Assembly: GCF_002007105.1 (NCBI RefSeq)
Contig: NZ_MVBC01000013.1
Coordinates: forward strand, 124,001 to 188,000
Source: Hymenobacter sp. CRA2
GTDB taxonomy: Bacteria; Bacteroidota; Bacteroidia; Cytophagales; Hymenobacteraceae
Length of the DNA stretch: 64,000 nucleotides
Reading direction: 5' to 3'
The translations under genes and the position numbers were made by a program. The notes beneath the pieces were generated by a model that saw only the letters and a list, made by a program, of their open reading frames with translations, had not been told where the DNA came from and did no database searches. This document shows, piece after piece, positions 17,096 through 20,670 of the stretch; positions within the stretch are counted from its first letter, which is position 1, and each line of letters begins with the position of its first letter.

Positions 17096-17464
17096 GTGCA
17101 AAAGTGCTTGGCCATCTGCCTTACCTTGCTCATCCTGCTGCAGTCGTTCAGCCGGGAGCTGCTGGTAATGGATTACGCCTTGCACAAGGAGCGTATCACG
17201 CAGCTGTTTTGCGTGAACAAGGACAAGCCTCAGCTGCACTGCAACGGCAAGTGCCATTTGCGCCGGCAGCTGGCGCAATCAGCAGCGGAGAAGAAAACCC
17301 CGGACCGCGCCACTAAACTCAAACTTGACGCGGCCCTAGTACCCACCCGGCTGGTGTTTACGCCCGCAGTAGTGGTTTTGGCGTCAGCTGAGTATGCCGT
17401 CCTGGTTGGGTCGAAGTATGGGCACGAAGCGCCGAGCGGTATTTTCCGCCCGCCGGTAAGCTGA
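17096..17464 (+). CDS. Small Cys-containing membrane/exported protein, metal-locus associated
   Basis: 122 residues starting at GTG. An N-terminal hydrophobic segment (CLAICLTLLILLQSFS) is followed by a conserved-looking block LFCVNKDKPQLHCNGKCHLRRQL at about 40-63 with three Cys and two His, then a variable tail with a second hydrophobic patch (about 92-106). Bacteroidota carry many short proteins with this NKDKP...CNGKCHL signature; I know no function for them. The Cys/His block suggests metal binding or a redox role, and the next gene (69 bases on) is a copper-protein homologue, which supports a metal link. A TATATTTA box at 17067-17074 could be a weak -7 element. Confidence 0.65.
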   Translation: MQKCLAICLTLLILLQSFSRELLVMDYALHKERITQLFCVNKDKPQLHCNGKCHLRRQLAQSAAEKKTPDRATKLKLDAALVPTRLVFTPAVVVLASAEYAVLVGSKYGHEAPSGIFRPPVS

Positions 17465-17532
17465 GCCTGAACGTTGGGCTGCCCGTCAGCATCCAGGCGC
17501 CCCCTGCTTACCTTCCACCCAGCTTTCCACCC

Positions 17533-18312
17533 ATGACTTTCCGTACGCTTTCTTCCTGTTCCGCTGCCATTTTGTGCGCAGCCACTGCCTTGCTCTTCAC
17601 GGCCTGCGACGACGATAACGAGACGCCCGCGAAGGGCAAGCTCAACGTTGAATTCGAGAACGTGGCCGGTAGCCAGCCGCTGAACTTTGGCAGCACGTAT
17701 ACCACGGCCGCCGGTGACCCGTTCACCGTGAGCAAATTCAATTACTACATTTCCAACATCAAGCTGACCAAAACCGACGGCACTGAGTGGGCCGAGCGGG
17801 AAAGCTACCACTTGGTGAAGCAAGCCGACGCCGGCTCGCGCAGCTTTCAGCTAACGGACATTCCGGCGGGTGAGTACAAAAAGCTGACCTTCACCATCGG
17901 CGTCGACAGCGCCCGCAACGTGTCGGGCGCGCAAACGGGCGCATTGGATCCGCTCAACGACATGTTCTGGACCTGGAGCACGGGCTACGTGTTCCTGAAG
18001 ATGGAAGGCAACTCCCCGAAGTCACCGACGGGAAACCTGCAGTTCCACATCGGCGGCTTCCGTTCCCCCAACAACACTATTCGGACCGTGTCGCCGGGCA
18101 TGCCCGCGGGCGTTACCGTGCAGGTTACGGCCAAGAAAACGTCGGCAATTCACTTGCAGGCCGACGTGCTCAAGATGTTCACCGGCCCGAACCCCATTCA
18201 GTTTGCGCAGACGTCCAACACGGGTCACAGCTCGGACCCGAATTCGGTGAAAATTGCCGCTAACTACGCCGCGGGCATGTTTACCATTGCTCACGTGCGC
18301 GCCGGCGAGTAA
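17533..18312 (+). CDS. MbnP-like copper-binding lipoprotein
   Basis: 259 residues. The lipoprotein signal ends LLFTAC at about residue 25. The body is a beta-rich MbnP-family domain: LNVEFENVAGSQPLNFG, then FTVSKFNYYISNIKL, the QLTDIPAGEYKKLTFTIGVD block, and the Trp-rich MFWTWSTGYVFLKMEG near residues 142-157. In the characterised methanotroph MbnP, a partner di-heme enzyme (MbnH) oxidises a Trp to kynurenine, which helps bind copper. Here a di-heme peroxidase follows 12 bases after the stop, the same pairing. The role in this organism (periplasmic copper capture) is inferred; no methanobactin genes are seen. Confidence 0.85.
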   Translation: MTFRTLSSCSAAILCAATALLFTACDDDNETPAKGKLNVEFENVAGSQPLNFGSTYTTAAGDPFTVSKFNYYISNIKLTKTDGTEWAERESYHLVKQADAGSRSFQLTDIPAGEYKKLTFTIGVDSARNVSGAQTGALDPLNDMFWTWSTGYVFLKMEGNSPKSPTGNLQFHIGGFRSPNNTIRTVSPGMPAGVTVQVTAKKTSAIHLQADVLKMFTGPNPIQFAQTSNTGHSSDPNSVKIAANYAAGMFTIAHVRAGE

Positions 18313-18324
18313 AAGCCTTTGGCC

Positions 18325-19380
18325 ATGAAGCGTACCCGGACAGCCCCGTTGGCCGCCGTGCTGGCGGGGCTGCTCATGGCAGGGTGCCAGCCCGATGCCG
18401 ATGTGCAGCAGCCCGCCGAAGCGGTGCCGGGCAGCGTGCTGCCTGGCAATTTCCCCACGCCGGTGTACGCCCTGGAGCAGAACTCGCCTGACCGCGCGAC
18501 GTTCGAGTTGGGCCGCCGCCTTTTTTACGACAAGCGGCTGTCGGGCGACGGTACGGTAGCCTGTAGCTCGTGCCATCTGCAGCCAGCGGCCTTTGCCGAC
18601 CCTGGCCGAGCTTTCAGCACCGGGGTGCAGGGCCGATTGGGGACGCGCAATACCCCGCCGCTGCAAAACCTGCGCTGGCGCCGCACCTTGCTGTGGGACG
18701 GTGGCGCTTCCAACCTGGAAGTTATGCCGCTGGCGCCGCTCACCAATCCCCTGGAAATGGACGGTTCGCTGGCTGGGGCCCTGCAAACGCTCAACGCCGA
18801 TGCCTACTACCGCCGCCGGTTTGCCGCCGTGTACGGCGAGGGGCCGATAAACTCCCAGCAGTTTTTGCGGGCGCTGGCACAGTATCTGGCCGGCCTCACT
18901 TCGGCCAATAGCCGCTACGACCATTACGTGCGCCGTGAAGGCGGCGCGTTCGATGCCACCGAGCTGCGCGGCCTGGCTATTTTTCGCGCCAACTGCGCCA
19001 GCTGCCACGCCACGGATCTGTTTACCGACGAGTCGTTTCGCAACAACGGCCTGGACCGTAGCTTTCCCGCCGACTCCGGCCGGGCCCATATTACTGGCCG
19101 CCGCGGCGAACGAGGCCTGTTCAAAGTCCCCAGCCTGCGCAACGTGGCCCTGACAGCCCCCTACATGCACGACGGCCGTTTCCCAACGCTCGGCGCCGTG
19201 CTGGCGCATTACGACCACGGCGTAGTGGAATCGGCGACCCTTGACCCGGCTTTGCGCCGCCCGGACGGCTCCCTCGGCATTCCGCTTTCAGCCCAGCAGC
19301 AAGCCGAGTTGCTGGCTTTCCTGCAAACCCTCACCGATGAACCATTGCTGACCAACCCGCAGCTAGGCCCACCGCAGTAA
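18325..19380 (+). CDS. Di-heme cytochrome c peroxidase/MbnH-like lipoprotein
   Basis: 351 residues. Lipobox LLMAGC at about residue 20. Two CxxCH heme c sites, CSSCH in the N-terminal half and CASCH in the C-terminal half, plus the family blocks ELGRRLFYDKRLS, NTPPLQNL, LLWDGG.SNLE and LRNVALTAPYMHDGRF. The MauG/CcpA superfamily uses H2O2 either for detoxification or to modify a partner protein. Next to an MbnP gene, the second is likelier: oxidation of the MbnP Trp. Which residue is the distal ligand of the high-spin heme cannot be settled by eye. The ATG at 18325 is preferred to an upstream TTG because it begins the lipoprotein signal. Confidence 0.9.
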   Translation: MKRTRTAPLAAVLAGLLMAGCQPDADVQQPAEAVPGSVLPGNFPTPVYALEQNSPDRATFELGRRLFYDKRLSGDGTVACSSCHLQPAAFADPGRAFSTGVQGRLGTRNTPPLQNLRWRRTLLWDGGASNLEVMPLAPLTNPLEMDGSLAGALQTLNADAYYRRRFAAVYGEGPINSQQFLRALAQYLAGLTSANSRYDHYVRREGGAFDATELRGLAIFRANCASCHATDLFTDESFRNNGLDRSFPADSGRAHITGRRGERGLFKVPSLRNVALTAPYMHDGRFPTLGAVLAHYDHGVVESATLDPALRRPDGSLGIPLSAQQQAELLAFLQTLTDEPLLTNPQLGPPQ

Positions 19381-19484
19381 CGTCGCTTGCGGCGAGTTGA
19401 GCGGGGTTGAACTGCTAAGTCAACCCAGTGGTTTCCTATTGAAAAGCAGTATTTTCAGCCCACCACCCTCTCTACCCCGTACCC

Positions 19485-20603
19485 GTGTTAAAACCCTCTA
19501 CTTGGCGTTCTTGGTGGGCACTGCTTCCCGCGGGGCTGTTTTTTCTGGCCGTAGCCTGTCAACCCGACAAAGACGTTCCAGCGGAAACGTTTAGCGCCCC
19601 GACACCCATGACATTTCCGATGCCAGCCCAAGCCGGCTGGCCGGCCCCACAACCCATGCCAGCCGATAACCCCCTCACGGAGGAAGGCGTTGCCCTAGGG
19701 CGCCGGCTGTTTTATGAGAAGCAGTTGTCCGCCGATGGCACTATCTCCTGCGCCTCCTGTCACCAGCAAAGCAAAGCCTTTACCGATGGCCGTGCCTTTG
19801 CTATTGGCGTAAACGGGCAGCAGCACCGGCGCAGCAGCATGTCACTGGTCAATCTGGCCTGGGACAAGAGCTTTACCTGGGATGGCGCTACCAACAGCCT
19901 GGAGACCCAGGCGCGGGTGCCGCTGGAAAACCCCGTCGAAATGCACCAGTCGCTGGCTACCAGTGCGAGTAAGCTGCAGCAGCTCGGCAACTACCCGCAG
20001 CTATTCGGCAAGGCGTTCGGCTCGTCCCAGATTACGGAAGACAACATTCTCAAAGCCCTGGCGCAGTTTGAGCGGACGCTGGTGTCTTACAACTCAAAGT
20101 ATGATCGATCTAAGCGCGGGGAAGTGCGCCTGACCGCTGATGAGCAGGCTGGGCTGGATTTGTTCAGCACTCACTCAGGCCCTGGAATCAACGGTGCCGA
20201 GTGCTTCCACTGCCACAGCTTGCCGAGCGTATCAGGCATCCACGAATTCACCAACAACGGCGTCGATGTGGCCCCCTTCGCCGACCCCGGCCGCGGCGGC
20301 GTTACGGGTCAGGCCTTCGAGGTCGGCCGCTTCAAGATTCCGAACCTGCGCAACGTGGCGCTGACGGCCCCCTACATGCACGACGGCCGCTTCCAAACGC
20401 TGGAGGAAGTAATCGACCATTACAGCGACCATGTCAAAAGCGCCCCGACCACCGATGGCATCCTGTTCAGCAACCCTAATAATTTCCCGTCGGGCCGTAT
20501 CCTGCTGAACGCCGACCAGAAACGCCAGATCCTGGCCTTTCTGCACACGCTCACGGACACTTCGTTTCTCACCGACCCGCGCTACTCCGACCCCAACCCC
20601 TAG
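19485..20603 (+). CDS. Second di-heme cytochrome c peroxidase lipoprotein
   Basis: 372 residues, GTG start. Lipobox LAVAC at about residue 25. Two heme c sites, CASCH and CFHCH, with the blocks ALGRRLFYEKQLS, SFTWDGATNSLETQ, PVEMHQSLA and LRNVALTAPYMHDGRF. It is clearly related to the upstream gene but diverged: longer, with an NGAECFHCHSLPSV insertion around the second heme site and FTNNGVDV after it. This looks like an old duplication with specialisation; it may be a true peroxidase, or act on a second substrate. It lies 104 bases after its paralogue and ends at a very strong terminator. Confidence 0.9.
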   Translation: MLKPSTWRSWWALLPAGLFFLAVACQPDKDVPAETFSAPTPMTFPMPAQAGWPAPQPMPADNPLTEEGVALGRRLFYEKQLSADGTISCASCHQQSKAFTDGRAFAIGVNGQQHRRSSMSLVNLAWDKSFTWDGATNSLETQARVPLENPVEMHQSLATSASKLQQLGNYPQLFGKAFGSSQITEDNILKALAQFERTLVSYNSKYDRSKRGEVRLTADEQAGLDLFSTHSGPGINGAECFHCHSLPSVSGIHEFTNNGVDVAPFADPGRGGVTGQAFEVGRFKIPNLRNVALTAPYMHDGRFQTLEEVIDHYSDHVKSAPTTDGILFSNPNNFPSGRILLNADQKRQILAFLHTLTDTSFLTDPRYSDPNP

Positions 20604-20611
20604 TCAGCATC

Positions 20612-20670
20612 GCGCCCCAAGCAAAGGCCCCGCCCGGTTGCGTACCGGGCGGGGCTTTTGCTTGGGGCGC
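20612..20670. terminator. Bidirectional terminator between the peroxidase gene and ftsZ
   Basis: Arms of 27 bases (20612-20638 and 20644-20670) pair with a single G-T wobble and a 5-base loop. It sits between the convergent peroxidase and ftsZ stops, so it ends both the copper-linked operon and the dcw operon. Confidence 0.9.

Follow-up and report, generated by a model that had tools for sequence, protein, structure and literature searches.

What is a small, probably exported cysteine protein doing directly ahead of an MbnP lipoprotein and two di-haem enzymes? The question arises from a 64,000-nucleotide stretch of Hymenobacter sp. CRA2 (positions 124,001–188,000 of the forward strand of contig NZ_MVBC01000013.1, assembly GCF_002007105.1; hereafter the window), which holds a set of four plus-strand genes at 17096–20603. 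The first (17096–17464, GTG start) encodes 122 residues with the motif CNGKCHL at residues 49–55 and, as the initial annotation had noticed, lies just upstream of the gene for MbnP (17533–18312), a probable copper binder of 259 residues, from which it is separated by 68 nt (17465–17532). The MbnH-type enzyme said to follow MbnP 12 bases on is indeed there: MbnH1 (18325–19380) begins with an ATG at 18325, after the MbnP stop at 18312. A second MbnH/MauG-type di-haem lipoprotein, MbnH2 (19485–20603, GTG start), completes the set. Gene models are the longest open frames, and starts and gaps are therefore approximate. Since the order small gene–MbnP–MbnH1 is seen again across the family and the class, the gene set of the window is not a chance assembly. 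We propose, with moderate confidence, that this operon serves copper acquisition and carries a copper gauge of its own, in which the small protein, hereafter the leader, would gate MbnP, MbnH1 and MbnH2. By this analysis the product of the small gene is more probably a leader peptide, of the kind represented by CruR and CutF, than a copper carrier.

The window leader has no Pfam or NCBIfam match, and Pfam searches with 35 leader members gave nothing consistent (nine families, each matched by a single member, best E 0.037). In a 35-row alignment the N terminus is hydrophobic, and the sole invariant columns are C39, C49, G51 and C53, within a cysteine core (C39...C49-N-G-K-C53, 17210–17254), together with P119 and P120, which belong to the proposed arrest motif, FRPP, two residues ahead of the stop (17444–17455); all six are kept in 35/35 rows. 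A wider set of 155 distinct homologues comprises 33 from loci seeded with MbnP, 42 from loci seeded with the small protein and picked for having no listed MbnP, 79 from named loci seeded with the small protein, and the window leader itself. The named loci derive from a profile of 8 closer rows (best 80 of 569) and lean to Hymenobacter. Leaders sharing their last 60 residues were counted once, those without a stop were excluded, and loci L001–L064 and L125–L135 were unused.

Across this set the C-CxxxC core is present in 155/155. A di-proline lies within 8 residues of the end (1–7 before the stop) in 154/155, compared with 36 of the 1770 other proteins encoded at these loci; the one exception is L080, where FHPP lies further inward. 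The terminal motif is FHPP in 81, FRPP in 36, FQPP in 8 and YHPP in 6 homologues, and 143 of the 155 have an ending of the form [F/Y/L][H/R/Q/K]PP. The spacing from the last cysteine to the di-proline is 64–71 residues in 151 of 154, the remaining three having 73, 74 and 142. In rows with a spacing of 61–75, the intervening linker measures 57.4 ± 1.8 residues and has an identity of 0.251, as against 0.201 after shuffling, 0.612 in the core and 0.784 in the motif. Judged from these sequences, the linker is kept in length and hardly in sequence.

In 155/155 leader loci the downstream gene shares the strand of the leader, compared with 1207 of 1707 background adjacent pairs (71%), and this holds whatever the identity of that gene, which suits regulation in cis. 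The next gene encodes MbnP in 74 of the 155, a TonB receptor in 28, an outer-membrane barrel with a CDxCGC motif in 25 and an unnamed protein in 22; MbnH1 (3), YHYH (2) and MbnH2 (1) are rarer. The MbnP-seeded group biases these counts towards MbnP; in the 79 named rows seeded with the small protein, MbnP comes next in 47. A second leader copy in the window genome, ending EYPPAEG, precedes a TonB receptor and PepSY_TM. In the class, the leader is present in 81/149 genomes. Among 98 class leader matches (100 less the two weakest, that of G200 and the second of G171), at least 40 are followed on their own strand by MbnP within 3.5 kb, and among the matches listed none has MbnP at that proximity in another orientation. 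Leader and MbnP co-occur in 68 of the 149 class genomes, with MbnP only in 36, leader only in 13 and neither in 32 (p 6e-5, kinship uncorrected).

The downstream gene products support copper as the likely theme of the cluster, as first suggested. The window MbnP matches PF20243 with E 1.7e-62 (211 bits, curated cut-off 27) and takes the fold of structure 7l6g with 16% identity in the structural alignment; it misses the cut-off of the MbnP equivalog model TIGR04052 (66.9 vs 140). Its lipobox residue C25 is cysteine in 59/63 aligned relatives. In the motif M144-F-W146-T-W148 (17962–17976), both tryptophans are kept in 63/63 relatives and M144 in 62/63, and a weak profile match (E 0.41) pairs this WxW with MAWNW of 7l6g. 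MbnP was the subject of a 2021 PNAS paper, which is said to have found that Cu(I) binding depends on conversion of the first WxW tryptophan to kynurenine by MbnH, and reportedly called such sites widespread. By this analogy W146 would be the kynurenine precursor.

PF20243 is found in 7/8 genus, 36/60 family and 104/149 class genomes. No methanobactin gene was noticed around the locus, although no search aimed at one was made. The idea of a stand-alone system was correct and is not new: according to an extract of PMC3621798, the MbnP/MbnH pair is conserved well past methanobactin producers, and the stand-alone pair has thus been in print since 2013.

Both enzymes belong to the MauG/MbnH di-haem superfamily by sequence, each with two CxxCH motifs and with profile matches to CCP_MauG (9.9e-51 for MbnH1, 3.1e-57 for MbnH2) and TIGR04039 (3.5e-64 and 1.9e-87). 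TIGR04039 is the top NCBIfam model for both, and its cut-off of 362.85 is reached by neither (217 and 293.5) nor in any of the 60 family genomes. The closest solved structure is in both cases 6e1c, a 'Di-heme enzyme' (1.3e-53 and 1.5e-60), which we take to be the MbnH of M. trichosporium. Both CxxCH motifs and Y296 are invariant in 26 aligned di-haem rows, and W124 is kept in at least 90%; we assume that W124 is the inter-haem tryptophan and that Y296 takes the place of MauG Tyr294. C21 of MbnH1, the lipobox cysteine, is nearly invariant across the 26 rows. The initial annotation had made both partners lipoproteins, which agrees with lipobox cysteines visible in MbnP, MbnH1 and MbnH2. The mean number of acidic residues after that cysteine is 1.88 in MbnP, 1.65 in MbnH1 and 1.33 in MbnH2; the detector is crude and the difference small, and we therefore make no claim of surface exposure.

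In a tree of 86 di-haem proteins (last 345 residues; proteins of 300 residues or fewer, such as the split MbnH2 of G010, excluded), MbnH2 forms one clade with support 99/94, present in all bootstrap trees. MbnH1, the class-wide partner of MbnP, has rows from other families of the class as well, and overall is not one supported clade. MbnH2 occurs in 35 of 36 MbnP-bearing family genomes, as against 0 of 24 without MbnP; in G010 it is split over two frames, and G035 is the lone MbnP-bearing genome in which it is absent. The di-haem matches of MbnP-less family genomes are frames of 518 to 721 residues, with an additional distant protein of 378 residues in G047; of these genomes' matches, those of G047 and G007 entered the tree. 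MbnH1 is found in 34/36 MbnP-bearing family genomes, being unseen in G023 (a short contig) and G055. On this sequence evidence, MbnH2 is no recent copy but a clade of its own, old and linked in its occurrence to MbnP. An additional MbnH2-like di-haem protein in G015 (L258) is sister to the MbnH2 clade and has no profile-detected MbnP within the fetched 12 kb.

Gene contexts, read for the window and 60 relative loci (L065–L124), show that in the family MbnH1 usually lies directly 3′ of MbnP, with MbnH2 in the same cluster on either side. The expected conservation of the gene set holds in part: MbnP, MbnH1 and MbnH2 recur across the family, but a same-strand copy of the small gene is present in the cluster in 19/36 MbnP-bearing family genomes. 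The notion of two enzymes facing one substrate holds at the window locus, but the genome carries a second, unlinked MbnP (G000, C2:52145-52720; L065). In the MbnP tree, which covers L065–L105 (with the L087 MbnP trimmed to its last 260 residues, and absent from MbnP alignment A3), this protein groups, with support, among genus paralogues that are likewise unlinked, and no di-haem enzyme was detected near it in the fetched stretch. MbnH2 could serve some other substrate, be it the additional MbnP or something unrelated, for example an outer-membrane barrel. The unlinked clade is present in 5/7 MbnP-bearing genus genomes, and in one branch (L097, L101, L104) two MbnPs stand between MbnH2 and MbnH1. 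We nevertheless regard such a substrate as unlikely: 27 of the 36 MbnP-bearing family genomes have a single MbnP and 26 of these 27 have MbnH2, single-MbnP genomes of the two-MbnP branch carry either type plus both enzymes, and the orphan genus MbnPs form their own clade, distinct from MbnH2-adjacent MbnP. The MbnH2–MbnP–MbnP–MbnH1 loci had suggested two substrates for two enzymes, an idea set aside because single-MbnP genomes retain both. MbnH2 is retained with MbnP with no second MbnP required, as in G004 and G005, where it stands alongside just one. Being kept only together with MbnP, it most likely acts on that protein or on its copper.

Taking the gene identities, the MbnP fold, the conservation, the synteny and the clades together, we infer the following mechanism by analogy with CruR. 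The small gene would make an exported nascent peptide. Once the ribosome reached the terminal Phe-Arg-Pro-Pro, the cysteine core would be about 65–70 residues away, outside the ribosome, and could reach the translocon or the periplasm. The ribosome tunnel hides about 30–40 residues; since the spacing between core and di-proline is larger than this, the core could sit past the translocon while the ribosome reads the prolines, a placement that would suit the detection of external copper, which has also been proposed for CutF. Copper occupancy of the core would determine if the ribosome remains at the di-proline and would thereby gate the downstream genes. Because this looks like an uptake operon, the natural guess for the sign of regulation is that of CruR, in which lack of copper leads to stalling and stalling to expression, so that the genes would be expressed when copper is scarce. 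Lipid-anchored MbnP would then acquire its copper site, the first WxW tryptophan probably being converted to kynurenine by MbnH1, with MbnH2 most likely acting on the same MbnP or its copper.

Several observations weigh against a copper-sensing leader. MbnP is absent from 13 of the 81 leader-bearing class genomes, and the leader from 36 of the 104 MbnP genomes; in the family, the leader is absent from the MbnP cluster in 14/36 genomes and in 3/36 points away from it, heading TonB receptor/PepSY genes. A same-strand gene lies 5′ of the leader in 94/155 loci, less than 100 nt away in 58, and in the window a flavin reductase gene stops 94 nt 5′ of it. The RAPP-type arrest motifs found in the extracts of the literature consulted do not include FHPP. 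The AlphaFold2 model of the leader (helices at 2–38, those at 2–29 coinciding with the hydrophobic N terminus, a weak helix at 54–65, the remainder coil; mean predicted local distance difference test 67) has low confidence beyond about residue 30–40, which may also stem from a thin alignment.

Nor do signals at the RNA level set leader loci apart. The window stretch between leader and mbnP folds unremarkably (z −0.25 with dinucleotide shuffles); GGTAAGC at the leader end can pair with GCTTACC ahead of mbnP, at an ordinary energy (z −0.2). With mononucleotide shuffles, the window and 15 relatives gave z < −2 in 7/16 (lowest −5.7, L179), and the analysis was therefore repeated with dinucleotide shuffles on a larger set. 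There z was below −2 in 52/127 leader stretches and in 62/150 control stretches, taken from 438 (p 0.15; median z −1.72 and −1.34). An anti-structure between leader and mbnP is not claimed, folding energies being no different from those of controls. C>G bias, a crude proxy for Rho sites, is not raised either (88/142 leader vs 364/574 control intergenic stretches).

Three invariant cysteines and a hydrophobic N terminus would suit an exported metal-binding protein, and the small protein might instead be a working periplasmic or membrane-anchored carrier that brings copper to MbnP, its terminal prolines serving structure or sorting. This is improbable in our view. The linker of ~57 residues is fixed in length and near-random in sequence, and the prolines lie 1–7 residues from the end in 154/155; AlphaFold2 gives no confident fold past residue 40 (from a thin alignment), and the strand rule of the next gene, indifferent to what that gene encodes, suits action in cis. 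On its sequence features, the small protein seems to fit a copper-sensing leader better than a fourth partner or a carrier. Very improbable, and already disfavoured by the synteny counts, is an ordinary MbnP/MbnH pair, as published since 2013 and as the TIGR04039 top hits of both enzymes might suggest, whose enzyme has been duplicated and whose small hypothetical neighbour has nothing to do with it, given that class-wide the small gene is found again and again ahead of MbnP and other copper-related genes and that the MbnH2 clade is old and well supported (99/94).

At its 3′ side the unit may end at a G+C-rich hairpin (20627–20655; the prediction lists the minus strand only) in the gap between mbnH2 and the convergent ftsZ. 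The plus strand 3′ of the hairpin reads TTTTGCTT. Terminator-like sites in the region number 5, with a shuffle mean of 6.0, and so show no excess.

Beyond the window, leader and MbnP keep other company. A protein of ~330 residues, barrel-like and here called F3, is a recurring partner of both (L088:8801-9811 and 26 further loci); several members begin ACDICGC, and the likely mature N terminus has CDxCGC. One member matches Phenol_MetA_deg and another nothing; the barrel is possibly a copper channel. F3 is not in the window cluster, to which the search was confined. Among the best-scoring 19 class loci from other families (L106–L124), 13 have the leader, 14 MbnH1 and 13 an F3-like barrel, and in 8 of the 19 all three are joined with MbnP. 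A YHYH-family protein lies just 5′ of MbnP in the distant relatives L118, L121 and L122 (Pfam YHYH E 1.6e-50 in L122) and one gene further in L124. SCO1/SenC and cytochrome c (Pfam run on one copy each) are downstream in L076, L077, L078, L080 and L113. Of the 22 next genes left without a name, 9 were run against Pfam, with the outcome YtkA-like in 4, a TonB receptor in 1, ferredoxin-like in 1, a sorting tail in 2 and nothing in 1. The YtkA-like protein directly follows the leader in L140, L173, L219 and L234, with a TonB receptor next in L140 and L173; the top NCBIfam model of the L140 receptor is TIGR01778, the TonB-dependent copper receptor (E 1.8e-52), below its cut-off (179 bits vs 472). 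These loci constitute one more candidate operon for copper uptake in the phylum.

How Bacteroidota take up copper is, in our judgement, poorly mapped. As a marker of copper operons, such a leader would point to candidate copper genes phylum-wide, among them the CDxCGC barrel, YtkA-like lipoproteins and the MbnP/MbnH set, and would add an independent case of a metal-sensing nascent protein. The role of the widespread MbnP/MbnH pair becomes directly testable in tractable hosts, as does the question of why one lineage nearly always retains two enzymes. In titles and abstract openings listed for the leader family and for MbnP in Bacteroidota, we found no published description of the leader family. 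Compared with MbnP/MbnH of Methylosinus trichosporium (7l6g), the window has two enzymes and a leader gene.

Copper switches in which a nascent peptide pauses the ribosome have so far come mainly from other bacteria, and the comparison below draws on extracts of the papers cited. CruR of Bordetella pertussis, a DUF2946 protein, has CxxC and a C-terminal RAPP 45 residues apart, with copper relieving the arrest and Rho termination involved (PMC9426467); the arrest has been demonstrated in vitro (PMC12992588), and cruR comes first in >40% of related copper TonB receptor operons (PMC12914433). CruR homologues precede TonB receptors including TIGR01778, PepSY_TM, Sco and MbnPH-like genes, and the extract of PMC9426467 names them from Proteobacteria, Planctomycetes, Firmicutes and Deinococcus, with Bacteroidetes unnamed. 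CruR and the leader, the latter probably exported as CruR is, are both small proteins with a cysteine motif and a near-terminal PP, in operons with TonB receptor, PepSY_TM, Sco and MbnPH-like genes. The motifs differ (CxxC and RAPP in CruR, C-CxxxC and FHPP/FRPP in the leader), as does their spacing (45 vs 64–71 residues). DUF2946 (PF11162) is not among the matches of 35 leader members at E ≤1, in searches whose HMMER filters drop most weak matches, and hhalign gives a probability of 0.7% against a three-row alignment of Bacteroidota DUF2946-type proteins. DUF2946 matches occur in 5/148 phylum genomes, two above cut-off. Rare Bacteroidota proteins of the DUF2946 type that carry RAPP or RGPP close to the C terminus are seen at L260, L261 and L263, frames (3/4 fetched loci) that came from a filter itself demanding CxxC and PP. 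Because its targets and layout resemble those of CruR while its motifs differ and no DUF2946 homology was found, the leader family probably does the same job as a separate family.

CutF of Rhodobacter capsulatus has CxxxC, a proline-rich end and a required signal peptide (PMC9973294). With the leader it shares CxxxC, an N-terminal export signal (putative in the leader), a proline-rich C terminus and its place as a small same-strand gene before copper genes. CutF promotes its target in the presence of copper by way of a stem-loop that covers the ribosome site of the following gene, whereas no shared stem-loop is established for the leader family. The CutF-like list in PMC9973294 is 40% Bacteroidota after normalisation, so that the leader family may be included there, unnamed.

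A third comparison is with the small exported upstream open reading frames that end in RAPP or RGPP. Their C-terminal di-proline is shared by the leader, which mostly has [F/Y/L][H/R/Q/K]PP in place of RAPP or RGPP (PMC12992588, PMC10987492). The extract of PMC12992588 places copper-related examples in many lineages and none in Bacteroidota, and that of PMC10987492 has Bacteroidota arrest candidates ending NSP or NAP, ahead of sec genes. There is about an even chance that Bacteroidota hold a phylum-wide set of copper-sensing arrest peptides, ending [F/Y/L][H/R/Q/K]PP and unrelated in sequence to CruR, that gate MbnP/MbnH, copper TonB receptors, PepSY_TM and the CDxCGC barrel, in which case two lineages would have separately reached the same nascent-chain switch, acting on largely the same targets.

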